Positions 47,628 through 63,002 of a DNA stretch of 63,147 nt are shown here, in pieces. The notes under the pieces are model-generated. The model had not been told where the DNA came from, did no database searches, and saw only the letters and a list, made by a program, of their open reading frames with translations. How positions within the stretch are numbered: the first letter of the stretch is position 1; every line of letters starts with the position of its first letter. Where the stretch lies: the NCBI GenBank assembly GCA_938021675.1, contig CALIFY010000006.1, positions 1 to 63,147 on the forward strand, read 5' to 3'. Position numbers and translations under genes: made by a program. The stretch comes from an uncultured Acidimicrobiales bacterium. GTDB taxonomy: Bacteria > Actinomycetota > Acidimicrobiia > Acidimicrobiales > SZUA-35.

Positions 47628-49022
47628 TCAACCAGGCTGAAAACGTCTAGCAATTCGACTGTGGTCGACCAACATTTCGTCTAATCGGGGCGAAGCAAGT
47701 CGGCCGTCGGCAACTATCGGCCGTCCGGCCACCACCGTGTACCACGCTCCGGTCGGACCGCACCGCAACCATCCTTCGATCGGATCGGCCACGACACCGG
47801 CAAAGCTTGGGCCGGCCAGACGCCACACTGCGATGTCGGCCACGGCCCCGACGCTGAGTTCACCGAGCTCTCCGGACCTCCCGAGACACGCCGCTCCCCC
47901 TCGGGTGGCCATCTCCAGAGCGACTCGGGCCGGCATGGCGTCCGCTCCCGCCGTTAGTTTGGCCTGGAGGAGTGCCAATCGAGTCTCCTGCCACAACGAG
48001 CCACTGTCGGCCGAAGACGAGCCATCGACCCCAACTCCGACCGGGCATCCGGCGGCCAGTAAGTCCACGATCGGCGCTATCCCCGAACTGAGGATCATGT
48101 TCGAACTCGGGCAGTGAGCGATCCCGACCCCAGCTGCCCCGAGCCGCTGAATCTCCGATGGATCGGGCCGGACGACGTGGGCGGCCCAGCTCCGATCGGT
48201 CATCCAACCGACGTCTTCGTACAGATCGATCGGCCGCATACCAAACGTGGCGAGAGCGAACTCGTCATCCTCGACGTTCTCGGCCAGATGGGTGTGGAGT
48301 CGGACGTCGAGCGCTTCGGCAAGCTCGGCCGTTCGCCGCATCAGGTCTGGGGTCACGGTGAACGGGGAGCAAGGAGCGAGGGCGACCCTGGTCATCGCAC
48401 CATGGCTCCGGTCGTGCCAGCGATCGACATGGCGAACCGATTCGGCCAAGATCGTGTCCTCATCCTGCACCGCGTCGTCTGGCGGTAAGCCACCGTCCTT
48501 GGTCGACAGGCTCATCGAGCCATAGGTTGGATGGAAGCGGACCCCAAGGTCTAGGGCGGCGTGGATTTCGGCCCCCAACAAATCGCCGGCCGTCGACGGG
48601 TGCAGGTAGTGGTGGTCCGAGGAGGTCGTGCACCCCGAGAGCGCCAGCTCGGCCAGACCGACCCATGCCGCAACGTGGACTGCCTCTTCATCAAGAAACT
48701 CGGTCCACAGCGGATAAAGGCGCTGCAGCCACCCGAACAGCGGTGCCGACGTCATCGGCCCGTAGGCTCTCGTCAAGTTTTGAAAGAGATGATGATGGGT
48801 GTTGACAAGGCCAGGGGTGACCAGGCATCCCTCTGCGGAAAGCGTCGAGGTAGCCTCCGGCGCCGCATCGGTCGATGCCCCGACAGCGACGATGAGACCA
48901 TCGGTGATAGCGACCCAACCTCCGGGAAGTTCTCGCCGATCGGCGTCGACGGTAGCGACGAGGCGAGCATCACGGATCAACAGATCACAGGGGGCAGCGT
49001 CGGGCTGCGACCCAACCGTCAC
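47628..49022 (-). CDS. Amidohydrolase, 8-oxoguanine deaminase-like
   Basis: 464 aa. A metal-dependent amidohydrolase with HxH in NTHHHLFQNLTRA, a second-barrel histidine in RLHTHLAENVEDDEF, and catalytic regions GIAHCPSSNM and VGVGVDGSSSADSG. The pattern NTHHHLFQNLTRAYGP with CTTSSDHHYL is typical of the 8-oxoguanine deaminase / chlorohydrolase subgroup. It would deaminate an aminated purine to its oxo form in the cytoplasm. The GTG start overlaps the upstream transporter ATPase stop (GTGA), so it is the last gene of the importer operon. Confidence 0.85.
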   Translation of the reverse strand: MTVGSQPDAAPCDLLIRDARLVATVDADRRELPGGWVAITDGLIVAVGASTDAAPEATSTLSAEGCLVTPGLVNTHHHLFQNLTRAYGPMTSAPLFGWLQRLYPLWTEFLDEEAVHVAAWVGLAELALSGCTTSSDHHYLHPSTAGDLLGAEIHAALDLGVRFHPTYGSMSLSTKDGGLPPDDAVQDEDTILAESVRHVDRWHDRSHGAMTRVALAPCSPFTVTPDLMRRTAELAEALDVRLHTHLAENVEDDEFALATFGMRPIDLYEDVGWMTDRSWAAHVVRPDPSEIQRLGAAGVGIAHCPSSNMILSSGIAPIVDLLAAGCPVGVGVDGSSSADSGSLWQETRLALLQAKLTAGADAMPARVALEMATRGGAACLGRSGELGELSVGAVADIAVWRLAGPSFAGVVADPIEGWLRCGPTGAWYTVVAGRPIVADGRLASPRLDEMLVDHSRIARRFQPG

Positions 49023-50695
49023 GATGCGTCGGTCACCTCGGAATCGGCCACTGCGGACTCGGGCCCATCAGAATCGGGCCCATCAGAATCGTGGACAGGC
49101 GAATCTGCGATAGGCGAATCGGCCACAAAGGAATCTGCCTCACCGACGGTGGCACCGGCCATGGCCAGGCCGAGCCCCTCACGAGTCGCCGATGGGCGAT
49201 CGAGCACCGAAACAACCTTTCCTTCATACATCACCGCAATCCTGTCGGCCAATGCAAGGATCTCATCAAGGTCTTCGGAGATCATCAGGATAGCCACGCC
49301 ATCAGCTCGCTGAGCCAGAAGCTGCGAGTGGATGTATTCGGCGGCGCCGATGTCGACCCCTCTCGTCGGTTGAGCGGCCAACAACACGGTGGGGCTGCTG
49401 TCCAACTCCCGAGCGAGGATGAGCTTCTGGATGTTGCCACCGGACAAGCTCTTCGTCGGAGTTTCCAGGCTTGGGGTCTTCACCGAAAACGCATCGACGA
49501 GGCGGTGACAGTGCTCGGCCATCCGCTCGGAGCGAAACAATCCGCTTCGCAAGAACCGGGAATCGTCGTGGTTGATCAATAGCAGGTTCTCTTTGACATC
49601 GAACTCGCCGATGGCACCGTCTTTCATACGCTCTTCCGGCACATAGGCCAAGCCGGCAGCGCGAGTAGTCGCCGAATTGGCCGCCGTTACGTCGACCCCA
49701 TCGATCTCCACCACCGAACCCCGGCGGGCCGGTCTGAGCCCGGCGATGGTCTCGGCCAGCTCGCGTTGTCCGTTCCCGGAGACCCCGGCGATACCAACGA
49801 TCTCGCCCGCCCGGACGTCGAGGTCCACGCCGTTGACCGCCATGGTGCCCCGGTCGCCGATGACCTTGACGTCCCGGAGGCTCAGGCGGACATCACCAGG
49901 TTCCACCGACGCCTTATCGGGGGCCAACACTACCTCACGTCCAACCATCATCTGAGCTAGCTGGTGGCGGTCGGCGTCGGCTGGCACCGTGTGTCCGGTG
50001 ACCCGACCGTTGCGAAGCACCGTGATCCGGTCGCTCAACTCTATGACTTCGTGGAGTTTGTGAGAGATAAACACAAGACCACGCCCGTTCGCTGTCATCT
50101 GCCGGAGGATGACGAACAGATCGTCCACCTCTTGGGGTGTCAACACCGCGGTCGGTTCGTCGAGAACAAGCAGCTCGGCGTCTCGATACAACGCCTTGAT
50201 GATCTCTACCCTCTGGCGCTCCCCGACCGACAGCTTCCACACTTCGATCGAGGGATCGACCGCCAGCCCGTATCGCTCCGAGATCTCGACGATCCGGGAT
50301 GACACCGCCCCGAGGTTGGTGGACGGCCGCCAGCCAGGCTTCAGACCGAGCGCCACGTTTTCGGCGACGCTGAGCGTCGGCACCAACATGAAATGTTGAT
50401 GGACCATGCCGATCCGCATGCCGATGGCGTTTGTCGGCGATGTGATCTCCACCGGATTACCGCGGAGCAGAATTTGTCCCTCATCGGGCTGATATAGCCC
50501 GAACAGGATCTTCATCAGAGTACTTTTTCCCGCTCCGTTCTCTCCGAGAAGGGTGTGTACCTCTCCGCGGCGAAGATCAAAGCTTACGTCGTCGTTAGCC
50601 ACCACGCCGGGAAAGCGCTTGGTGATGTTTCGCATTTCCAACAACGGAACATCGGTGTTTTCAACACGTTCCGGCGCGGTAGCCAACGACTCCAT
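49019..50695 (-). CDS. Nucleoside-type ABC importer ATP-binding protein with two ATPase domains
   Basis: 558 aa. Two tandem nucleotide-binding domains of the BMP/RbsA type. The first has Walker A LLGENGAGKSTLM, signature LSVGERQRVEIIKAL and Walker B LLVLDEPTAVL. The second lacks a canonical Walker A but has the signature LSGGNIQKLILARE, typical of this family. The last 39 residues are a five-residue xDSxx repeat. Partner of the two permeases and the BMP lipoprotein upstream. The family imports nucleosides or bases. Confidence 0.92.
   Translation of the reverse strand: MESLATAPERVENTDVPLLEMRNITKRFPGVVANDDVSFDLRRGEVHTLLGENGAGKSTLMKILFGLYQPDEGQILLRGNPVEITSPTNAIGMRIGMVHQHFMLVPTLSVAENVALGLKPGWRPSTNLGAVSSRIVEISERYGLAVDPSIEVWKLSVGERQRVEIIKALYRDAELLVLDEPTAVLTPQEVDDLFVILRQMTANGRGLVFISHKLHEVIELSDRITVLRNGRVTGHTVPADADRHQLAQMMVGREVVLAPDKASVEPGDVRLSLRDVKVIGDRGTMAVNGVDLDVRAGEIVGIAGVSGNGQRELAETIAGLRPARRGSVVEIDGVDVTAANSATTRAAGLAYVPEERMKDGAIGEFDVKENLLLINHDDSRFLRSGLFRSERMAEHCHRLVDAFSVKTPSLETPTKSLSGGNIQKLILARELDSSPTVLLAAQPTRGVDIGAAEYIHSQLLAQRADGVAILMISEDLDEILALADRIAVMYEGKVVSVLDRPSATREGLGLAMAGATVGEADSFVADSPIADSPVHDSDGPDSDGPESAVADSEVTDAS
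49022..49138 (-). repeat. Seven-copy pentapeptide-coding repeat at the ATPase C-terminus
   Basis: Seven consecutive five-residue units of type x-D/E-S-x-x (ADSFV, ADSPI, ADSPV, HDSDG, PDSDG, PESAV, ADSEV) followed by TDAS. At the DNA level the period is 15 bp, with some diverged copies. No function is apparent; probably a flexible acidic tail. Confidence 0.85.
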
Positions 50696-50714
50696 AGTTT
50701 TGATCTACTTTCGA

Positions 50715-51917
50715 CTACTGGCCGGTGCTGATCGAGCCGTCGACGACGCCAGCGATCGTCTCACCAACCCCACCCTTGATCTCTTCATCCAGTTCGAAGC
50801 AACCGTTGAACTCGATCACGAGGCCCTCGTTCTCTAACGTCAACTCGAAGACCTCACCTCCGAGCGTGCCGCCTTCGATTGCCGAGAAGATGTCGGTCAG
50901 GACGACCTCCCAGTGATACACCTGCGATGCGACCACCAGGTCGGGCGAGAGCGACACCTGATTCGACTGCGTTCCGAACCACGGAACTTGGTTGGCGTCA
51001 GCAACGCTAATAGCGCCCACAACATGCTGGGCCGAGCCGGTCAAGATGTCTGAGCCGGCGTCGACATGGGCCGTTGCCGCCTCGGTAGCGAGAGCGACAT
51101 CGCCGAACGAACCGGTGTACGTGACGTTGACCGAGGCCCCTTCAGCCTCCGCTCCGGCGACAAACCCGTCGACGTAGAGGGCGGCATCGCCAGCTTCAAT
51201 CGGTCCGACCATGCCGATCGATCCTGCCTCGGACAGCTTGGCTGCCACGGTTCCGAGCACGTACCCACCTTGATCTGCAGCCGGCGTGTAGGCAAAGACG
51301 TTGTCGAGCCCTTGGGTCTCGCTTGCGGTGCCCCACACGAAGCTCGTCTCCGGGAACTCGGGAGCGATCTCCTCCAGCGAGCCTCCGTACTGTGTGCCAT
51401 GAGCGATGACCACGTCGATCCCGTCCTCGGCATAGCCACGGATAGCGGCCGCCGCCTCCTCAACCACGAACGTGCTGGTGGTTAGCTGCGGTTCGATACC
51501 GAGTGCCGTGACGGCGTCGACCATGCTCTGCGTGAATGCCAGATCATCTTCGGCGCTGGGGGCCACGATGGCGACGGTCAAGTCGGTGACCGGCTCAGAC
51601 GCGGCGGGGAACGATGAGGTTTCGCCACATTCGACGGTAAGCATGTTCCCGCCGGCATCGGCCATAGCGTCGCCATCGTCGGCGTCGCCTTCTTCCTCCT
51701 CTTCCTCTTCCATCGCGCCTTCGGCTTCTTCGGTCACATCATCGACGGCATCGTCTGCCGCATCCGCTGCGTCGCCAGCTGCGTCGACAGCATCGTCGCC
51801 GGCGTCGGTTACCTCGTCGACCGCATCGTCGACAGCATCATCGCTACCACAGGCGGCAGCGATGAAGACAAGCGCCGCGAGGGCACCAATCAGCTTCAGA
51901 ACAACCTTCTTACTCAT
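50715..51917 (-). CDS. BMP-family substrate-binding lipoprotein
   Basis: 400 aa. Lipobox IAAAC (C23), then an extraordinary acidic linker of about 65 residues (DDAVDD-type repeats and a run of Glu), then a BMP/PnrA-type ligand domain. Motifs include DLAFTQSMVDAV, VIAHGTQYGGSLEEIAPEFP, GMVGPIEAGDAAL and YHWEVVLTDIFSAIEGG. This class binds purine nucleosides, bases or related compounds. Given the purine-type enzymes around it, a purine or urate-like ligand is likely (inference). Confidence 0.92.
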   Translation of the reverse strand: MSKKVVLKLIGALAALVFIAAACGSDDAVDDAVDEVTDAGDDAVDAAGDAADAADDAVDDVTEEAEGAMEEEEEEEGDADDGDAMADAGGNMLTVECGETSSFPAASEPVTDLTVAIVAPSAEDDLAFTQSMVDAVTALGIEPQLTTSTFVVEEAAAAIRGYAEDGIDVVIAHGTQYGGSLEEIAPEFPETSFVWGTASETQGLDNVFAYTPAADQGGYVLGTVAAKLSEAGSIGMVGPIEAGDAALYVDGFVAGAEAEGASVNVTYTGSFGDVALATEAATAHVDAGSDILTGSAQHVVGAISVADANQVPWFGTQSNQVSLSPDLVVASQVYHWEVVLTDIFSAIEGGTLGGEVFELTLENEGLVIEFNGCFELDEEIKGGVGETIAGVVDGSISTGQ

Positions 51918-51994
51918 AGTGAAATGTGTCTCCTGCCTTGGTCTTTGAACTGGATCTTGTCTCGTTTGCCTAGCGATTGGTTGCGCGGTTCATA

Positions 51995-52927
51995 TCAATG
52001 CCGCGAGAACGGTCGGGCCAGAGCGGCCGGAGCTTCGATTCGACGGGCCAACACCACGAGGGCGACGATGGTCAACACGGCCGGGGCCATGGCGCCGAGA
52101 TCGGAGGCTTCGAGCGGGATGATGCCGCGGGTCTTCAGCTGAAGGACAAGGGAGGCCACGATCCCGTACAACAACGCACCGACCATCACGCCGCGGGATC
52201 GCCAAGCGCCAAAGTAGACGAGAGCAACGGCGATGAATCCAAGCCCCTGGGTTAGGTTTGGCTGGAAGATCCCCAGGCCGAGAGACAACGCCATCCCCGC
52301 CAGGCCGGCCATCGTGTTTCCGATCAAAATGGCGATGAATCTGACGCCGGCGACCGACACGCCGAGGCTGTCGGCGGCCTGCGGGTTCTCGCCGACGGCT
52401 CGGACGTTCATGCCGAAGGTGGTTTTGAACAATACGAGCGTAACGATGGGCACCAATGCAAAAGCCAGGTACGTCAGAGGGTTGTGCTGGAAAATGGCAT
52501 CTCCGACATACGGAATCGAGCCGAGACCGGGTATGGCTACCTCTTCGAGCCTGACCTTCAGCGGCGTAGGTGTACCAACGAGTTCTTCGAATAACAGGTC
52601 GCTGAACCCGAGCCCAAACAGGAAGATACCTATCCCGCTGATGCCCTGTTCCGCCTCGAAAACTACGGTGATGACGCCGTAGACCACGCCCATGAGTAAT
52701 CCGATTACCGCCCCCGCCAGGAAGCCGTACCACAAGTTCTCGGTTCGTAATACGACGTAGTACGAACCGAACGCGCTGAGCAGCATAACGCCGTCGACAC
52801 CAAGGTTGAGCACACCGGACCGTTGACCGATCGTTTCGCCGAGCGCGGCGAGAAGGTACGGGGTAGCGAGTCGGATACCGGCGGCTACGGTCGACACGAG
52901 AACCGACAAGGTGAACAGATCCCTCAT
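51995..52927 (-). CDS. Nucleoside-type ABC importer permease (YufQ-like)
   Basis: 310 aa with eight to nine helices. Typical motifs are TPYLLAALGETIGQRSGVLN near the start, then GVDGVMLLSAF, KTTFGMNVRAVGENPQAADS and FIAILIGNTMAGLAGMALSL. It lies 4 bp after the companion permease gene. Forms the membrane channel with it. Confidence 0.92.
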   Translation of the reverse strand: MRDLFTLSVLVSTVAAGIRLATPYLLAALGETIGQRSGVLNLGVDGVMLLSAFGSYYVVLRTENLWYGFLAGAVIGLLMGVVYGVITVVFEAEQGISGIGIFLFGLGFSDLLFEELVGTPTPLKVRLEEVAIPGLGSIPYVGDAIFQHNPLTYLAFALVPIVTLVLFKTTFGMNVRAVGENPQAADSLGVSVAGVRFIAILIGNTMAGLAGMALSLGLGIFQPNLTQGLGFIAVALVYFGAWRSRGVMVGALLYGIVASLVLQLKTRGIIPLEASDLGAMAPAVLTIVALVVLARRIEAPAALARPFSRH

Positions 52928-52931
52928 CGCT

Positions 52932-54068
52932 TCACACCTCTCCGGTCACGGCGACATCATCGGTCGTCTCATGGGAGTGAGGTAGTCCACCTTTTTCCCG
53001 TAGCATCCGGTCTTCGATCAGGTGGCGGACTCGGCCACTCGACACTACGAAAATGACGATGATCCCGTTGAGAGCGATGGCCAATGGAGCGGGGATCTGA
53101 AGTGCTCGTTGGAGGTTGTTGGCGCCGGTCAGCAAGCTGCCAAACAAGAACGAAGATGGGATGGTCCACAGTGGGTGTAGACCGCCGAACAACGCAGCGA
53201 CGATCCCATTGAATCCAGCGGAGCCGGTGAACCCCACCGATGAACCATCGGTGACCATTCGTAGACTCTCGCTCCCAAATACCAGGACCGCACCGGCCAG
53301 ACCAGACAGCGACCCGCTGATAGCCATGGCGGTTACGATGCTTCTCTCTACAGAGATTCCAGACGCTCGGGCGGCATCCGGATTGTAACCGACCGCCCGG
53401 AGCCGGAATCCCAGGGGTGTTCGCCAGAGCACCACCCACACCGTCAACGCTGCCGCTATCGCGATAACGATCCCGAGATGAAACCGAGTACCGGGGACGA
53501 GGATGGGAAGGGCTGCATTGTCCGTCAGTCGCTGGGTCTGAGGAATCCGGCTACCTTCGAGTTCTGCAGGGTCGATCATCGGGCCACGCAACAGGACGTT
53601 CATTACCTGAATGGCGACCAGGTTGAGCATAATCGTGCTGAGGATCTCATTTACCGCGGCGTACGCCTTCAGCACACCGGGAATCGCTCCCCAAAACGCA
53701 CCGCCGACCATGCCGGCGAGAAGCACGATGGGCAAGAGCAAGATCTTCGGCGTGTCGGGGATGGTCAAGGCGATGGCGGTGCCGAGGAGCGCTCCGATCA
53801 CGATTTGGCCCTCGCCGCCGATGTTGACCACCCGCGACCGAAAGGCCACGGTGATTCCGGCACCGACGAGCAGGAGTGGTGCCGCTCGGACCATTGTGGT
53901 GGCCAACCGGTCCGGCGTACCAAACGCCCCATCAACCATCGCCACCAACCCGTCGAGCGGGTTTGCTCCCAGAGCGAGAATCATTACTGCTCCGAACAGG
54001 AAGGCGACAAGGGCCGCCCCAAGGGGCACGACGCCGCCAAGCACTCTCGTCCCGACCACCCGTCTCAT
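52932..54068 (-). CDS. Nucleoside-type ABC importer permease (YufP-like)
   Basis: 378 aa. Helix-rich, with VRAAPLLLVGAGITVAFRSR, VVNIGGEGQIVIGALLGTAI, GFRLRAVGYNPDAARASGIS and TALNGIIVIF-like ends. The BMP-associated permease pattern is clear. First transporter gene of the reverse arm, 179 bp after the regulator stop; that gap shows no clear terminator, so read-through from the regulator gene is possible. Confidence 0.92.
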   Translation of the reverse strand: MRRVVGTRVLGGVVPLGAALVAFLFGAVMILALGANPLDGLVAMVDGAFGTPDRLATTMVRAAPLLLVGAGITVAFRSRVVNIGGEGQIVIGALLGTAIALTIPDTPKILLLPIVLLAGMVGGAFWGAIPGVLKAYAAVNEILSTIMLNLVAIQVMNVLLRGPMIDPAELEGSRIPQTQRLTDNAALPILVPGTRFHLGIVIAIAAALTVWVVLWRTPLGFRLRAVGYNPDAARASGISVERSIVTAMAISGSLSGLAGAVLVFGSESLRMVTDGSSVGFTGSAGFNGIVAALFGGLHPLWTIPSSFLFGSLLTGANNLQRALQIPAPLAIALNGIIVIFVVSSGRVRHLIEDRMLREKGGLPHSHETTDDVAVTGEV

Positions 54069-54247: not shown

Positions 54248-54742
54248 CTATGCCGTCCTGTCGATTGCGTTCAGGTAGTTGTAAATTGTAATTCTGCTGA
54301 CACCCATGATTTTGGCCATGTCGTCGACGGCGCCGCGAAGCAGGAACGCACCATGCTCATCGAGCATTCGTACCACCTGCTGTTTTTCGGCCCTGGTCCA
54401 CTGAGTGGACGGCGTCCCGAGATCTCGTTCGGCGGCTCGGATCATGTTGGCCAGCGCATCGTGGAGGGGCCCAACGTTGAGCTGATCAACATCGGTTCCG
54501 ACGTGAATTCGGATGGAGGTCGCTCCGGCCCCGACCGCTCCCCGAATCATGTCGGCAACCGAATCGGCGATCCGATCGACGCCACCCGAGGTCACCGAGG
54601 CGAACGGACCAAGCTCGACGGATAGCCCCCGTCGCTCGAATGCCTCGACTGCGACGTCGACGTATTGCCCCGGCGAACCTTCAATGAACGGTTCTACCAG
54701 GAACTCGGCGGCAAGTTCGGATGGAGGTTCTTCGGAACCCAT
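54248..54742 (-). CDS. Regulator: thiamine-binding-fold (YkoF/MTH1187-like) domain fused to HTH_22
   Basis: 164 aa. N-terminal part (about 10-95) with AEFLVEPFIEGSPGQYVDVA and VELGPFASVTSGGVDRIADS resembles the small thiamine/HMP-binding (DUF77/YkoF) fold. The C-terminal part (about 112-160), EKQQVVRMLDEHGAFLLRGA then VDDMAKIMGVSRITIYNYL, matches the helix-turn-helix of YheO/DauR (HTH_22). So it is a small ligand-binding regulator sitting at the head of the importer operon and divergent from the YgfK-like gene. It is the likely controller of the palindrome at 54814. The domain calls are from memory of the families. Confidence 0.75.
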   Translation of the reverse strand: MGSEEPPSELAAEFLVEPFIEGSPGQYVDVAVEAFERRGLSVELGPFASVTSGGVDRIADSVADMIRGAVGAGATSIRIHVGTDVDQLNVGPLHDALANMIRAAERDLGTPSTQWTRAEKQQVVRMLDEHGAFLLRGAVDDMAKIMGVSRITIYNYLNAIDRTA

Positions 54743-54840: not shown

Positions 54841-56760
54841 GTGGGCATGGTGACCCAACGCGCCATGCATGATGATCATTGTGGCACCAGTTCGCCCGGT
54901 GACCATATCGGTGAGACCGCTCCCCTTACACCGATGGGCCTCGACGTACTTCTGAATCGTGTCGCCCACGAGTTCAACTCCCGAAACCGAATATTCGACC
55001 TCCCGACCGCCCGCTATTGGCGACCCGATCCCCAGATCGATCTCGGTTTCGATTTCCTCGGTCGTCACGTTGCCACCCCGACCGGACCAGCAGCCGGCCC
55101 CCACAGCCAACTCGCTCAGAACATCGTGTTGTCCTGGCTCGGCGGCGCCCGCCTATTCGAGCTGAAAACGGTACAGATCCTCGACGAACTCGACATCGCC
55201 AGGCCATGCATTGACATGGCGACGGTCGGCTACAACATCGAGTGGAGCCAAGAGCTACGCATCCCGCAGAGCCTCACCGAGTACGTCAAAGCATCGATGA
55301 TGCTCGAAATGTTGGCCCGATGGGAACCGGTGACCGCCCACATCGGTGAGGATTCCGGGCCATACGTGTTCGATCTGTCCGTCGGCTACGACTTGGCCGG
55401 TATCTCCGACGAGCGGGTCGCCACCTTCATCCGAGGGATGGCCGACGCCACCGCCGAAATCGAACGGCTGCGGGGCAAGATTCCTGAACCGTTCGCCCGG
55501 TTCCGCGACTTCGATTTCACTACCCGCCTGGCCGACACGTTGACCCTGTCGACGTTTCATGGCTGCCCGCCGGACGAGATCGAACGGATCACCAAACACC
55601 TCATCGATGCCCATCACCTCGACGTCATCGTCAAGCTGAACCCAACCCTTCTCGGCTATGAGACGGTCGCCGGCATCGTGAACGACGAGCTCGGCTACTC
55701 CGATGTGGACATCAAACAGGAGGCGTTCGCCGACGATCTGCAGTTCGACCGCGGCGTCGAACTCATCGATGAACTCAACGACTACGCCACCGAACGGGGA
55801 CGTCGATTCGGGATCAAGTTGACGAACACGCTCGTTGTCAACAATCGAAAACAGTGGATGCCCGACGACACGATGTACCTCTCGGGGGCCCCGCTCCACG
55901 TGTTGGCCATGTCCTTGCTCGACAAGCTGTCGGCGACGATGCCCGGACGGTTCGACCTCCCCGGTCACGACGGCGACATCCTCGTCAGCTTCTCGGCCGG
56001 TGTGTCAAAGGACAATCTGGCCGACACCATCGCCACCGGCGTCAACCCGGCGACCGTCTGTTCCGATCTATTGAAGCCCGGCGGCTACGGCCGGCTCGCC
56101 CCGATGCTCAAGGCGTTGACGACCGCGGTCCGAGAATCCGGAGCCACCGACCTGGCGGGATTCCGAGCCAATCGGCAGGCCGAGGCGATAGCGGCCGGCG
56201 CGTCGTCGACCACCGCCGCCCATGTGGCGGCCATACGGGGGATCGATCGTCACCGATACCACGTGGACGGCAACAGCAAATGGCCGAGGGAGGTAGAGAG
56301 CGACCTGAAGATGTTCGGGTGCGTCGCCTGCAACCTTTGCATCACCGTCTGCCCAAACGATGCCTTCTTCTCGATCAAGAGCCTGAGCACCGACCACGAA
56401 CTCCGCACAACGTTCGACGTCGAGGGCACGGAATCCCGACAGCAGTACACCGAGTCGGGCATGGAGTCCCGACAGCAGTACGTCGTGTGGGCAGAGCTGT
56501 GCAACGAGTGTGGGAACTGCATGACCTTCTGCCCGGAAAACGGCGACCCGGCCATGATCAAACCCCGGCTGTTTACCGACCCTGCCGTATTCGAAGGGCG
56601 TACCGGCCAAGGCTTCCTGCTGGGCGATGCACCCGAGGGTGCCGACGCCCCGGCCGGCGTCGGATTGACCGCCCGAGACGGCCATGAGGCCGACGGACGC
56701 ATCGTGGCCGCCCTGTTGTCTTCCCCGGCCGGAAATCCGTTGTGGAGATCCGAGTCGTGA
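54841..56760 (+). CDS. ygfK: Compact YgfK-like FMN/iron-sulfur protein
   Basis: 639 aa from GTG at 54841; ATG codons at 54847, 54865 and 54934 are alternatives, and the last aligns best with where E. coli YgfK begins. The dihydroorotate-dehydrogenase-like domain (about 45-440) contains ATPTGPAAGPHSQLAQNIV, LFELKTVQILDEL, TLSTFHGCPPDEIE, KLNPTLLGYE and VCSDLLKPGGYGRL, all shared with YgfK. At the C-terminus are two 4Fe-4S motifs, CVACNLCITVC and CNECGNCMTFC. The GltD-like FAD/NAD(P)H region that lies between these parts in full-length YgfK (about 1030 aa) is missing. Part of the purine-type degradation set; the reaction is not known to me. Confidence 0.85.
   Translation: MGMVTQRAMHDDHCGTSSPGDHIGETAPLTPMGLDVLLNRVAHEFNSRNRIFDLPTARYWRPDPQIDLGFDFLGRHVATPTGPAAGPHSQLAQNIVLSWLGGARLFELKTVQILDELDIARPCIDMATVGYNIEWSQELRIPQSLTEYVKASMMLEMLARWEPVTAHIGEDSGPYVFDLSVGYDLAGISDERVATFIRGMADATAEIERLRGKIPEPFARFRDFDFTTRLADTLTLSTFHGCPPDEIERITKHLIDAHHLDVIVKLNPTLLGYETVAGIVNDELGYSDVDIKQEAFADDLQFDRGVELIDELNDYATERGRRFGIKLTNTLVVNNRKQWMPDDTMYLSGAPLHVLAMSLLDKLSATMPGRFDLPGHDGDILVSFSAGVSKDNLADTIATGVNPATVCSDLLKPGGYGRLAPMLKALTTAVRESGATDLAGFRANRQAEAIAAGASSTTAAHVAAIRGIDRHRYHVDGNSKWPREVESDLKMFGCVACNLCITVCPNDAFFSIKSLSTDHELRTTFDVEGTESRQQYTESGMESRQQYVVWAELCNECGNCMTFCPENGDPAMIKPRLFTDPAVFEGRTGQGFLLGDAPEGADAPAGVGLTARDGHEADGRIVAALLSSPAGNPLWRSES
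56431..56481 (+). repeat. 11-residue tandem duplication between the two Fe-S motifs
   Basis: An 18-bp sequence (GAATCCCGACAGCAGTAC at 56431, with one change at 56464) repeats with a 33-bp period, so ESRQQY occurs twice (ESRQQYTESGM then ESRQQYVVW). It sits in the loop between the ferredoxin motifs, in frame. Confidence 0.9.
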
Positions 56761-57683
56761 CCGGTCGAGTGCTACGGGTCGGGGCTGGTCAACTCGGGCC
56801 GATCGCTAGAGACGAACCGCGCCACGACGTGGTTGCACGGTTGATCGCCTTACTCGAACAGGCGGGTGACCGTGGGGTTGAACTACTGGCCTTTCCTGAA
56901 CTGGCACTTACTACATTCTTTCCCCGGTGGTTCACCGACGACGTCTCCGGCCACGACCACTATTTCGAACGATCGATGCCAAGCGAGGAGACCAAGCCCC
57001 TCTTTGATGCGGCGACGACCTTGGGCATCGGGTTCTCTCTCGGATTTGCCGAACTGACAGAAGACGGCGACCGCTACAACTCGACGATCCTGGTCGACGG
57101 CGATGGTTCGACCGTCGCCACATTCCGCAAGGTCCATATCCCCGGTCACCAAGATGACGAGCCGTGGCGTCCGTTCCAGCATCTAGAACGCCGGTACTTT
57201 CTCGAATCCGACGACGGGTTCGGGGTCTGGCGGTGCTTCGGCGGACTGGTCGGCATGGCGACCTGCAACGATCGGCGCTGGCCTGAGACGTACCGAGAGA
57301 TGGGTCTCCAAGGGGTCGAGCTGATCCTTATCGGCTACAACACCCCGATCCACTACGCCCCGGATCCCGGCCAGAACTCGCTTCAGGGGTTCCACAACCA
57401 CCTCTGTATGCAGGCCGGCGCCTATCAGAACGGCACCTGGGTGGTCGGTGTGGCCAAAGGCGGAACCGAAGAAGGGGTCGAGTCACTGGCGCAGTCGGCC
57501 ATCATCGCCCCATCGGGGCAGATCGTGGCCCAGGCGTTGACGACCGGCGACGAACTCATCGTCGCCGACTGCGACCTAGACAGCTGTCGCCGTTACAAGG
57601 AGACCTTGTTTGACTTCGCCCGGTACCGCCGGCCCGAGGTCTACCAACGGATCGCCGGACAGAAAGGCGTGATCGAGCCGTGA
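56757..57683 (+). CDS. N-carbamoyl-D-amino-acid hydrolase homologue (nitrilase superfamily)
   Basis: 308 aa from the GTG at 56757, which overlaps the preceding stop (GTGA); an ATG at 56742 is also in frame. The Glu-Lys-Cys catalytic triad is visible in AFPELALTTFFPRW, FRKVHIPGH and TCNDRRWPE. These segments, with FQHLERRYF, GYNTP and MQAGAYQNGTW, match Agrobacterium-type D-carbamoylase closely. It removes carbamoyl as CO2 and ammonia from an N-carbamoyl compound. Here it probably acts on a ureido intermediate of ring opening (inference). Confidence 0.88.
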   Translation: MTGRVLRVGAGQLGPIARDEPRHDVVARLIALLEQAGDRGVELLAFPELALTTFFPRWFTDDVSGHDHYFERSMPSEETKPLFDAATTLGIGFSLGFAELTEDGDRYNSTILVDGDGSTVATFRKVHIPGHQDDEPWRPFQHLERRYFLESDDGFGVWRCFGGLVGMATCNDRRWPETYREMGLQGVELILIGYNTPIHYAPDPGQNSLQGFHNHLCMQAGAYQNGTWVVGVAKGGTEEGVESLAQSAIIAPSGQIVAQALTTGDELIVADCDLDSCRRYKETLFDFARYRRPEVYQRIAGQKGVIEP

Positions 57684-57726
57684 GACATCGAGTTGATACG
57701 ACGGCAGAAGAGACGAGGTCGGTTCG

Positions 57727-60402
57727 ATGAAAAAAGAACCGATCGACCTCGTGGTAAACGGCCAGCCGGTATCGGTATCGGCCGAGCACGAACATCTCTT
57801 GTTTGCCCTCCGGGACGAGCTAGGGGTTATCTCACCGAAAGACGGATGCGCCCCCTCAGGGCAATGCGGATGCTGCACGGTACTGGTCGACGGCAAAGCC
57901 AGGGTGGCCTGCCAGACATCGATGGAGCGAGCCGCCGGCACCGAGGTGACGACCGTCGAAGGACTCGATGCGTCCGAGAGCGACGCGATGGTCGCCGCCT
58001 TCGCCGCCCACGGAGCCCTCCAGTGCGGATTTTGTACTCCGGGCATCGTGATGCGAACCAAGGCCATGATCGACAAGAAGGGCCAGGACCTCACCCGCGA
58101 TGACGCGTCCCGCCTTCTGGGAGCGCACCTCTGCCGGTGCACCGGGTACATCAAGATCCTCGACGCCATCGAAGACCTAGCGGCCGGCGAGGTGCCGGTG
58201 GCTATCGAACCGAGCGGCGTCGGCTCTCGGGGAATTCGCTACGAGGCCGCCGAACTGACCCTCGGATCGCGGCCATACATCGACGACATGACACCCCCGG
58301 GGTTACTCCACGCCGCCTTCGCCTTGACCGATCACGCCCGAGCCGACGTATTGGCTATCGACACCAGCGAAGCCGAGGCGTTGCCTGGCGTCGTTCGAGT
58401 GTTTACCGCAACGGACGTACCGGGGGAACTTCGTTCGGGACTGATCCACAAGGACTGGCCGATCTTCATCCCGGTCGGCGGTCGAACCAGCTACCTCGGC
58501 GACGTGCTGGCCCTGGTGGTGGCCGAAGACCGACCGACGGCACGTCGGGCCGCCGAACTCGTGACTGTCGAATACGACGTACTTTCTCCGTTCACGAACC
58601 CGGCAGAAGCGGTGGCCTCCGACGAAGACGCGGTGTGGACGCTCGATGGGAACGTTCTGTCGACGTCGGTGTACGCCCGAGGCGACGTCGAGGATGCGCT
58701 CGCCAGCTCGGCTCACGTGGTGACCGAAACGTTTCAGACCCAACGGATCGAGCACGCATTCCTCGAACCGGAATCGACCTTGGCCGTGCCGGTGCCAGCT
58801 GGGACACCGCTACCGGTAACGGCCGGCGACAAGACCGTTGACGATGTCGACCGGCTGATGGTGTATAGCGGTGGTCAGGGAATCTGGGATGACCGCGACG
58901 ACATCGCCCGCATTCTCGACGTCGACACGTCGGTGGTGGTAACCGAGTTGGTCTCCAACGGAGGGGCATTCGGCGGCAAGGAAGACATGTCGAATCAGGG
59001 CCAGACGGCGTTGGCCGCTTGGCTGTTGCAACGACCGGTCCGTTGCACCCTGTCTCGAGAGGAGTCGTTGCTGATCCACACCAAACGGCACCCGATCGCC
59101 ATGACCTACGAGGCCGGCTGCGATGCCGACGGCCTTCTCACGGCGGTCAGAGCCAGGATGCTCGGCGATTCAGGGCCGTATGCGTCGGTTGGGATGAAGG
59201 TGCTCGAGCGGGCCGCCGGTCACGCTTCTGGACCGTACGTCGTCCCGAACATCGACGTCGAAGCGGTGGCGGCCCGGACGAACAATTCGGTGTGCGGTGC
59301 CTTTCGAGGGTTCGGGGCCAACCAGGCCCAGTTCGCCATGGAGGGCGTGATGGATCGGCTGGCCGCCGCGGTCGGGATCTCCCCATGGGAGATGCGGAAC
59401 CGCAACGTGGTCGAACCCGGCTCGGTCTGGGGCCCCGGCCAGATCATGGACGATGGCTGCCTCGGTGCCAGGGCATGCCTCGATGCGGTCAAACCGGCGT
59501 TCGATGAGGCATCGGCGGCCGGGAAGGCAGTCGGTGTCGGGCTCGGGCTGAAGAACTCCGGCCTGGGGAACGGGTTCAACGAGGTGGCGAGGGCGGTCGT
59601 CCGATTCCGGCCTGAAGACGGGTCCGGGAAAAAGGGGCAAAAAGGAGAGCAAAAAAGAGTTGAGGTTCGGCATTGCTGGACCGAGATGGGCCAGGGGGTG
59701 CACACCGTCGCTCTTCAGGTGGCGGTCGAGGAACTCGGCGTGTCGGCCGATCAGGTCGAGGTCATCGTCGACTCGACCCGAGAACTCGGCGCCGGCCAGA
59801 CGACGGGTAGCCGGGGCACGCTCATGGGGGCAGGCTCGGTGGCCGACGCCTGTCGTGCCGCGGTGGCGGACGGCTGCCGGGTCGGAGTCGACTACGAAGG
59901 CGAGTATCGGGTCGATTGGACCAACTCATTGTCCGATGGTCTCGAACATCCGATCATCCATTCCACGTTCGGCTACGCAGCACAACTGGTGGTCATGGAC
60001 GCCGCCACCGGCGACATCGAGAAGGTGGTGGCGGCCCACGACGTCGGCCGCGCCGTGAACCCGCTGCTCTGCGAGGGCCAGGTCGAGGGGGCGGTCCACA
60101 TGGGCCTCGGCTACGCCTTGTCTGAGGGGTTCCCGTGCGACGAAGACGGACGACCGCTGAACACCACACTTCGAAGTCTCGACATCATCCGACCAAAGGA
60201 CATGCCAGCCGTCGACGTGATCTTGGTCGAGTCACCCCAACCCGACTCGCCATACGGAATTAAGGGTGTCGGCGAAATTGGGCTTGTTCCTACCGCGGGG
60301 GCGGTGGCCGAAGCATTGCGGGGCGTCGATGGGGTATGGCGCAACGAGCTACCGATGGTAAACGAAGCCAACCGTGAACGAGCGAGTGCATGGGAACGCT
60401 AG
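57727..60402 (+). CDS. xdhD: Fused molybdenum hydroxylase, XdhD-like xanthine dehydrogenase family
   Basis: 891 aa. N-terminal 2Fe-2S plant-type ferredoxin domain (KDGCAPSGQCGCCTVLVDG, Cys41/47/50) and second 2Fe-2S domain (QCGFCTPGIVM, HLCRCTGYIKIL), then the molybdopterin-binding domain (about 170-890) with GGAFGGKEDMSNQGQTALAA, FRGFGANQAQFAME, MGQGVHTVALQVAVEEL and the active-site Glu in GVGEIGLVPTAGAV. The same fused layout occurs in E. coli XdhD and the so-called selenium-dependent xanthine dehydrogenases. No FAD domain, so an outside electron carrier is needed. It hydroxylates a purine-like heterocycle. The reading frame has no in-frame TGA, so selenium as Sec is not used. Confidence 0.92.
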   Translation: MKKEPIDLVVNGQPVSVSAEHEHLLFALRDELGVISPKDGCAPSGQCGCCTVLVDGKARVACQTSMERAAGTEVTTVEGLDASESDAMVAAFAAHGALQCGFCTPGIVMRTKAMIDKKGQDLTRDDASRLLGAHLCRCTGYIKILDAIEDLAAGEVPVAIEPSGVGSRGIRYEAAELTLGSRPYIDDMTPPGLLHAAFALTDHARADVLAIDTSEAEALPGVVRVFTATDVPGELRSGLIHKDWPIFIPVGGRTSYLGDVLALVVAEDRPTARRAAELVTVEYDVLSPFTNPAEAVASDEDAVWTLDGNVLSTSVYARGDVEDALASSAHVVTETFQTQRIEHAFLEPESTLAVPVPAGTPLPVTAGDKTVDDVDRLMVYSGGQGIWDDRDDIARILDVDTSVVVTELVSNGGAFGGKEDMSNQGQTALAAWLLQRPVRCTLSREESLLIHTKRHPIAMTYEAGCDADGLLTAVRARMLGDSGPYASVGMKVLERAAGHASGPYVVPNIDVEAVAARTNNSVCGAFRGFGANQAQFAMEGVMDRLAAAVGISPWEMRNRNVVEPGSVWGPGQIMDDGCLGARACLDAVKPAFDEASAAGKAVGVGLGLKNSGLGNGFNEVARAVVRFRPEDGSGKKGQKGEQKRVEVRHCWTEMGQGVHTVALQVAVEELGVSADQVEVIVDSTRELGAGQTTGSRGTLMGAGSVADACRAAVADGCRVGVDYEGEYRVDWTNSLSDGLEHPIIHSTFGYAAQLVVMDAATGDIEKVVAAHDVGRAVNPLLCEGQVEGAVHMGLGYALSEGFPCDEDGRPLNTTLRSLDIIRPKDMPAVDVILVESPQPDSPYGIKGVGEIGLVPTAGAVAEALRGVDGVWRNELPMVNEANRERASAWER

Positions 60403-61427
60403 CGGCAGACCAAACACCGGGTTTGGTCTGCGCTCACCATCATCTCTATTCGACATTGGCTCGGGGCATGCCGGCGCCGCCCCGGACTCCAACCGAGTTC
60501 TTGGAGATACTTGAATTGGTGTGGTGGCGGCTCGATCGGGCCCTCGACCTCGACGTGATTTACCACTCCGCTCGGCTCGGCGCGCTCGAAGCACTGGCCG
60601 CTGGGTGCACCGCCATTATCGACCACCATGAATCTCCGAACGCTATCGACGACTCATTGTCGGTCATCGCTGAAGCATGCGCCGAGGTTGGGGTTCGGGT
60701 GAGTTGCTCCTACGGGGTCACCGATCGACATGGCCCCGAGGGCGCTGAGGCCGGGCTGGCGGAGAACGACCGATTTCTATCGTCGGGCGGTCGAGGCATG
60801 GTCGGGCTTCATGCCGGATTCACGTGTTCCGATGAGACGATCGCGGCCGCCGCGGCCCTTGCTCAAACACATGGGGTGGGCGTCCATGTCCACGTTGCCG
60901 AGGGACCGGCCGATACCTGGCAAAAGCTACGAGGCCACGCCACCAACGATTGGCTGTTGATCCATGGGGTCCATCTCCCCGACGATCACGACTTGTCAGG
61001 AACCATCGTTCACAATCCACGCTCGAATATGAACAACGGTGTCGGCTACGCCGTTCCTCGACGGTTCGCCAATCCGGTGGCCTTGGGCACCGACGGGATC
61101 GGGGCCGACATGCTCGATGAGTTTCGCCTCGCGTTCGTCAAGGCCAGGGAGGATGACGTGACCGTGGGGCCGGACGTGGCCTGGGGTTGGTTGCGTACCG
61201 GTTGGGATCTGTTTCCCGAGGCGCTGAACGACGCCGTGACGTGGAACTACCCTGTGATGGATTCGTGGCGGCTGGCCTATTCCACACAGGTCAGCCCGAC
61301 GACGATCGAGATTGACGGTGAGGTGGTGTGGGCCGATGGATCCCCGACCAAGGTCGATGCCGACGAGGTGCGCCGTAGCGCGGCCGAGGCGGCGCAAACA
61401 CTGTTCGACAGGCTGGAAGGCCTGTGA
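60390..61427 (+). CDS. ssnA: SsnA-like amidohydrolase with short N-terminus
   Basis: 345 aa; E. coli SsnA is about 440. Clear SsnA-type blocks: CAHHHLYSTLARGM with the HxH pair, LVWWRLDRALDLDV, GCTAIIDHHESPNAID, VHVHVAEGPADTW, VHNPRSNMNNGVGYA and ALGTDGIGADMLDEF. The composite N-terminal beta domain and first strands are absent: the protein opens almost directly at the HxH motif. The C-terminal beta part (TTIEIDGEVVWADGSP) remains. It overlaps the XdhD-like gene by 13 bp. An aminohydrolase of the purine-type set; metal binding should still be possible. Confidence 0.87.
   Translation: MGTLAADQTPGLVCAHHHLYSTLARGMPAPPRTPTEFLEILELVWWRLDRALDLDVIYHSARLGALEALAAGCTAIIDHHESPNAIDDSLSVIAEACAEVGVRVSCSYGVTDRHGPEGAEAGLAENDRFLSSGGRGMVGLHAGFTCSDETIAAAAALAQTHGVGVHVHVAEGPADTWQKLRGHATNDWLLIHGVHLPDDHDLSGTIVHNPRSNMNNGVGYAVPRRFANPVALGTDGIGADMLDEFRLAFVKAREDDVTVGPDVAWGWLRTGWDLFPEALNDAVTWNYPVMDSWRLAYSTQVSPTTIEIDGEVVWADGSPTKVDADEVRRSAAEAAQTLFDRLEGL

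Positions 61428-61457: not shown

Positions 61458-63002
<1,545 letters not shown>

Follow-up and report, generated by a model that had tools for sequence, protein, structure and literature searches.

The window, by which we mean the whole stretch of DNA analysed (63,147 nucleotides), is an entire contig of a 4.45-Mb host genome that is 95% complete and consists of 99 contigs. Towards its end, a compact YgfK gene heads a tight row on the plus strand, followed by genes for a carbon-nitrogen hydrolase, an XdhD-like enzyme, an SsnA-like enzyme and a PLP enzyme. The XdhD-like, YgfK-like and SsnA-like genes thus lie together within positions 54841–61427. Since the window ends where the contig ends, the gene row may continue past it. 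The features of this region are as follows.

47628–49022, minus strand: 8-oxoguanine deaminase (584 bits against a cut-off of 532)
49019–54068, minus strand: Bmp/PnrA-type ABC uptake system of four genes
49019–50695, minus strand: ABC ATPase with the Walker A motif GENGAGKST, assigned by sequence and position only
50715–51917, minus strand: Bmp/PnrA-type ABC binding protein, by family search
51995–52927, minus strand: ABC permease, assigned by sequence and position only
52932–54068, minus strand: ABC permease, by family search
54248–54742, minus strand: divergent HTH_22 regulator with a weak thiamine-binding-like match, under the cut-off of that family
54841–56760, plus strand: compact YgfK ORF of 639 aa (barrel at about 30–432, linker, two 4Fe-4S motifs at 494–564, no GltD-like domain)
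54925–56136, plus strand: DHODH/DPD-like barrel part of YgfK (TIGR03315 positions 4–398, and fold)
56323–56631, plus strand: C-terminal double 4Fe-4S part of YgfK (TIGR03315 positions 888–966, and invariant Cys)
56742–57683, plus strand: carbon-nitrogen hydrolase of the nitrilase/N-carbamoyl amidase type, by family search
57727–60402, plus strand: XdhD-like molybdoenzyme with [2Fe-2S] and Moco domains and no FAD domain (TIGR03311, 781 bits, cut-off 830)
60390–61427, plus strand: short SsnA-like amidohydrolase of 345 aa, candidate for ring opening together with YgfK
61458–63002, plus strand: PLP-dependent enzyme (PALP) of 514 aa, weakly cysteine-synthase-like, by family search

The original prediction described the ORF at 54841 as a YgfK that keeps its DHODH-like part and two ferredoxin motifs and lacks about 400 residues of a GltD-like flavin domain. 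Comparison with the TIGR03315 (Se_ygfK) profile bears this out. Residues 29–432 correspond to profile positions 4–398 with 423 bits, below the curated cut-off of 835, and positions 399–887 of 1012 have no counterpart, about 60 residues standing in their place. The profile stretch lost is therefore about 490 positions long, and the figure of 400 is correct as a net difference, E. coli YgfK (1032 aa) being 393 residues longer. Within the region that is absent here, a long YgfK homologue carries Fer4_20 and Pyr_redox_2; a Pfam search of the compact protein returned neither Fer4_20 nor Pyr_redox, and its matches were to 4Fe-4S families only. Both CxxCxxCxxxCP motifs are complete (C494/497/500/504 and C554/557/560/564). 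The eight cysteines are invariant across 46 aligned compact sequences, namely the window and 45 of 68 relatives passing a length filter, taken from the best 80 of 223 related loci (alignment A1, mean column identity 62%). Given the absent flavin domain, the predicted need for an external electron donor is supported.

A structure model built with the 46 sequences as input (mean pLDDT 83, pTM 0.88) found pig dihydropyrimidine dehydrogenase (DPD) as its best PDB match by Foldseek (E 4.3e-9). VIA-align superimposed the model on DPD chain 1gt8_C with a Z score of 24.6 and an rmsd of 2.7 over 286 residues; DHODHs scored equally, so that fold comparison does not distinguish DPD from DHODH. The barrel is thus recognised by fold and missed by Pfam, DHO_dh (PF01180) giving no match at E 0.001 despite the similar fold. 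A PDB sequence search gave no match at E 0.01. The overall architecture, an FMN-type barrel and two C-terminal 4Fe-4S motifs with no FAD domain, is of the PydA/UacX/PreA kind, and fold and motifs together suggest that the protein carries FMN and 4Fe-4S clusters. Its true start is probably the GTG at 54850, 9 bases inside 54841, because the aligned relatives begin with MTQ or MSQ.

The neighbouring XdhD-like enzyme lacks an FAD domain according to Pfam, just as had been predicted. It has eight 2Fe-2S ligand cysteines and spans positions 2–845 of the 848 of TIGR03311; since this match runs from end to end, the missing FAD domain is a trait of the family and not a special match to compact YgfK. 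We regard this enzyme as a candidate urate-to-yanthine reductase. E. coli XdhD has been proposed to be steered by residue E606, which falls within an insertion that is missing from the window enzyme. In E. coli XdhD itself (L125:21317-24187), the N-terminal [2Fe-2S] cysteine ligands are all gone, although the protein is annotated as Fe-S binding; the first 260 residues contain cysteines at 190, 201 and 238 only. An XdhD orthologue in the single-contig genome G002 (G002:C1:703323-705881, about 63 kb from compact YgfK) contains one in-frame TGA, reflecting either a pseudogene or recoding. Compact YgfK is also present in a second single-contig genome, G027.

Among the other neighbours, the 8-oxoguanine deaminase would yield urate, the carbon-nitrogen hydrolase is a candidate for cleavage of the ureido group, and the 514-aa PLP enzyme possibly acts at the diaminopropionate end; by family, this last enzyme is not YgeX-like, and the window contains no HyuA or YgeW match. 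The SsnA of the window has 345 aa where that of E. coli has 442, and it starts near position 58 of the family profile. This short form is conserved: a cluster of 33 loci has a median length of 350 aa. Gene content beside compact YgfK was then compared across the best 80 of 223 related loci, nearly all of them labelled as Acidimicrobiia or Actinomycetota metagenome assemblies. Of these loci, 63 encode XdhD, SsnA or the nitrilase, alone or in combination, at 55% identity or more. The remaining 17 have none of the three, some because of contig ends and others with the compact gene standing apart, which we count against a urate-pathway reading of compact YgfK. Counterparts of the 514-aa PLP enzyme occur in 27 of the 80, and an M20 amidohydrolase in 32, by similarity to one scanned member that exceeds the cut-off of the hydantoinase/carbamoylase family TIGR01879. 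A YgeX-like PLP enzyme similar to the one scanned member, in L082, which passes the diaminopropionate ammonia-lyase cut-off, is found in 7. A FAD-bearing XDH small subunit (one scanned) lies nearby in 14 and is a possible further source of urate. In 19 of the 80 there is another PLP enzyme, resembling that of L053 (366 aa).

The proposed survey of compact versus long YgfK established the compact protein as a conserved form. All 77 complete compact copies in the best 80 of 223 loci are 574–831 aa long (median 602). Across the class, YgfK occurs in 108 of 395 genomes, 70 with a compact form (52% identity or more, 65 of the 70 spanning at least 470 residues), 43 with a long one (a frame of at least 1000 aa) and 10 with both. 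A survey of the phylum gave YgfK matches in 20 of 396 genomes; outside the Acidimicrobiia these included two more compact forms (frames of 594 and 587 aa) against twelve long ones, in a distant group that we take to be Coriobacteriia from gene content and recall. The loci and genomes named here overlap and are not independent samples.

A barrel-only tree was calculated from 60 hand-chosen rows and 399 columns (33 Acidimicrobiia compact forms, 16 long forms, 10 Coriobacteriia-type sequences and E. coli); because L118 and L127 are one genome, L118 was left out of the long rows. The 33 Acidimicrobiia compact forms make up one clade (support 100/100) set apart by a long branch of 1.84, and the two other compact forms join the 8 long Coriobacteriia-type rows (100/99). 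A grouping of all compact forms was rejected with a p-AU of 0.005, in a test that was chosen after inspection of the tree and involves long branches. The compact/long trait has therefore changed at least twice. All 60 rows, compact and long, agree at seven barrel residues, K109, C242, K265, N267, N329, T330 and G349.

Both compact clades are set apart from the 25 long rows by twelve columns, and two mixed control groupings give 3 and 2. Simulation along the tree under LG+C20, which fitted the controls (2.1 and 1.8), produced a mean of 3.0 such columns, and none of 300 replicates reached 12. Under plain LG, which overshot the controls (5.7 and 4.8), the mean was 7.2 and 14 of 300 reached 12. 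One column is strict, with Ala386 in 35/35 compact and Gly in 25/25 long rows; it is not strong by itself, since 18 of the 300 LG+C20 simulations contain at least one strict column. Glu129 and Arg350 are invariant in the long rows and lost in both compact clades. In the predicted secondary structure, position 386 follows a barrel strand and position 350 opens a helix, which would place both at the FMN face. These data are suggestive, but not proof, of parallel barrel changes in the two compact clades, as the second clade consists of two sequences.

On the basis of these features, we consider it probable, though far from certain, that compact YgfK is a ferredoxin-fed yanthine reductase that takes up electrons through its 4Fe-4S pair. 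In such a pathway the neighbouring molybdoenzyme would turn urate into yanthine (2,8-dioxopurine), compact YgfK, as an FMN/4Fe-4S reductase, would dearomatise the yanthine, and SsnA would open the ring and thereby pull the YgfK reaction. Electrons would enter YgfK at its C-terminal 4Fe-4S pair and would pass from the clusters to FMN and then to the substrate. A small carrier would deliver them, the likeliest being ferredoxin that the 2-oxoacid:ferredoxin oxidoreductase of the genome has reduced. Cofactor content, the substrate in this organism and ferredoxin as the donor are the parts that we infer. As far as the literature was searched, no substrate test of the compact clade was found.

The POR_N domain, a mark of 2-oxoacid:ferredoxin oxidoreductases, was present in 22/22 genomes tested, and reduced ferredoxin appears to be the likeliest donor of compact YgfK. 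This count, like those of oxidase, uricase, SelD, XdhD and Fer4_20, comes from hand-picked sets of 20 to 66 mostly more complete genomes. Counted against a ferredoxin-fed enzyme is that no convincing small 4Fe-4S ferredoxin gene lies close to the compact gene among the best 80 of 223 Acidimicrobiia loci; the motif search set aside ORFs overlapping labelled genes as well as 2Fe-2S ferredoxins, and its matches in 4 loci were judged spurious. Five of ten Coriobacteriia-type loci do have a ferredoxin gene, whose motifs indicate 2 or 4 clusters, between YgfK and the FAD-less XdhD, at L151:11208-11432, L156:6898-7173, L157:7304-7561, L158:4720-5082 and L160:12575-13054. YgfK is compact in one of these loci and long in four, so this ferredoxin may serve XdhD and not YgfK. 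Three of the five were scanned by family search, and their best matches were RnfB-type or related Fe-S proteins, below cut-off. These ferredoxins are also candidates for the donor of XdhAC-type enzymes. A 2025 commentary names the physiological donor of XdhAC, a FAD-less molybdoenzyme of the reductive urate pathway, as an open question (PMC12990295).

The physiological setting was examined in the same manner. Cytochrome oxidase subunit 1 is encoded in 20/20 compact-bearing Acidimicrobiia genomes and was found in none of 4 Coriobacteriia-type genomes, and judging from this gene content the compact-bearing Acidimicrobiia can probably respire oxygen. A uricase search found no match in 20 compact-bearing Acidimicrobiia genomes including the host, other urate oxidases such as HpxO lying outside its scope. 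PMC12990295 describes the reductive urate pathway as confined to obligate or facultative anaerobes, and the oxidase in all 20 genomes is accordingly counted against the urate-pathway reading. The counts of OHCU decarboxylase (5 of 108 YgfK-bearing genomes against 20 of 287 others, p 0.49) do not establish that it and YgfK exclude each other. SelD exceeded its cut-off in 26 of 27 genomes. In 20 of these 26 its gene contains one in-frame TGA, for example G000:C65:22154-23071, and the product is probably selenocysteine-containing. For UBA5794, an oxidase-bearing actinobacterial group, PMC12008989 interprets ygfK as encoding a selenate reductase.

Other sources of electrons have to be weighed against ferredoxin. 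The original prediction suggested that XdhD and YgfK may exchange electrons directly, which would call for a complex wired from Fe-S to Fe-S in which XdhD oxidises one purine and YgfK reduces another. The shared cluster, the FAD domain missing in both proteins, the 2Fe-2S cysteines kept in the window and lost in E. coli, and a FAD-less XdhD orthologue in 46 of 49 compact-bearing genomes (G290, among the remaining three, has an XdhD fragment at a contig end) all agree with such wiring. However, FAD-less XdhD also accompanies long YgfK, in 13 of 17 long-only genomes, or 14 of 17 counted by long loci, where L118 and L127 are one genome. Conversely, compact YgfK in G086 (locus L184) is clustered with an XDH that includes its FAD subunit, and a FAD-less XdhD was not found there. 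In G255, a few genes separate compact YgfK from an XdhD that has a YgfM-like FAD subunit, and on another contig long YgfK stands beside a FAD-less XdhD. The two FAD-less traits thus assort independently. Both pathway steps are, moreover, reductions (PMC12507026), and two enzymes that consume electrons cannot feed each other in steady state, although they may share a donor. We therefore hold direct exchange to be very unlikely. An NAD(P)H flavoprotein, GltD-like or of another type, could also have its gene elsewhere and act in trans, as PreT does for PreA; this is unlikely but deserves more weight. PreA of the E. coli dihydropyrimidine dehydrogenase PreA-PreT has an FMN barrel followed by two 4Fe-4S clusters, to which the other protein brings electrons, and the host genome has a GltD. 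This 501-aa protein, its single Fer4_20 protein, adjoins a 1520-aa ORF of GltB size, which is counted against a part in feeding YgfK. A separate GltD-like gene beside the cluster was searched for as the original prediction had proposed, and the only strong match of the GltD-domain HMM in the best 80 of 223 loci was a long YgfK paralogue in L118; 45 of the 80 loci have more than 5 kb of flank on both sides, the others being a weaker test. Fer4_20 was furthermore not found in 4 of 20 compact-bearing Acidimicrobiia genomes (one genus, 94–95% complete) in a survey of the Fer4_20 type. With these genomes lacking the domain and none beside the cluster, a GltD, whether dedicated or borrowed, cannot be the general solution. 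Weak GltD HMM matches in 7 loci (23–39 bits) were rejected as nearby GltD, the one in L055 being an HI0933-type flavoprotein. Such a flavoprotein (L055:10722-11948, the one scanned) is encoded 3' to the compact gene in 5 of the best 80 of 223 loci and would suit a partner in trans; a like-sized ORF at the equivalent place in L165 encodes a GGDEF protein.

The compact protein might instead be a paralogue with a changed substrate or direction, long YgfK performing the urate step where both occur. The 10 of 395 class genomes with both forms, which could mean different substrates and are counted against the ferredoxin-fed yanthine reductase, fit this idea, as do the tandem of compact and long genes at L126, the long separation of the compact clade and the 12 distinguishing columns. 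Against it, of the 65 class genomes whose compact form is well spanned, 55 gave no long one, compact YgfK fills the slot beside XdhD and SsnA held elsewhere by the long form, and the seven checked barrel residues do not differ between the forms. A changed task thus seems quite improbable. That the gene is degenerate, truncated or an assembly artefact, as its reduced length might by itself suggest, is refuted by the compact length of all 77 complete copies, by column identity, invariant cysteines and barrel residues, and by the second compact clade, and we give it practically no credence.

Returning to the ferredoxin-fed yanthine reductase, we tentatively offer a bolder extension. The NAD(P)H module may have been lost from YgfK on two or more occasions, with like changes in the barrel, and a shared Fe-S carrier or even direct contact may feed both XdhD and YgfK, together constituting a ferredoxin-driven four-electron urate reductase, so that aerobically respiring bacteria would run the oxygen-independent urate pathway on ferredoxin. 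The kind of enzyme that YgfK represents is known; what is new is the loss of the NAD(P)H module, accompanied by parallel changes, and its occurrence in actinobacteria that have an oxidase and no uricase. In the literature searched, no mention of a YgfK lacking the GltD-like domain was found. Compact YgfK beside a FAD-less XdhD, in some genomes without a GltD-type domain, would narrow the donor towards an Fe-S carrier and provides a small, testable enzyme for the donor question. It would also extend the reductive urate pathway to environmental actinobacteria with aerobic terminal oxidases.

Comparison with known systems places the compact protein among several relatives. PreA resembles it in architecture, whereas no PreT-like partner was found for compact YgfK and its context is purine, not pyrimidine. 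The neighbouring molybdoenzyme shares the single chain of 2Fe-2S and Moco domains without FAD with TIGR03311, the selenium-dependent xanthine dehydrogenase family, but scores under its cut-off. The reactions of the reductive urate pathway and their order were worked out in 2025 for E. coli and C. difficile (PMC12507026). In E. coli both enzymes act as reductases, XdhD-YgfM with NADH and YgfK with NAD(P)H, and yanthine reduction together with SsnA was demonstrated for YgfK. Compact YgfK has in common with E. coli YgfK the seven barrel residues, the C-terminal double 4Fe-4S part and the SsnA and XdhD-like neighbours; it differs in lacking the GltD-like FAD/NAD(P)H domain, by which the E. coli enzyme draws electrons from NAD(P)H, in scoring under the family cut-off, and in its other neighbours. 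UacX of C. difficile, which has no FAD domain, carries out the yanthine step with SsnA when assayed with reduced methyl viologen, and ferredoxin was proposed as the donor for both FAD-less C. difficile counterparts (PMC12507026). UacX, which is PydA-like, and compact YgfK are both FMN barrels without FAD beside a FAD-less XdhD, and would catalyse the same reaction. UacX is, however, a PF01180 protein, whereas the compact protein falls into the YgfK branch and gives no DHO_dh match; because the families differ, the likeness is probably convergent.
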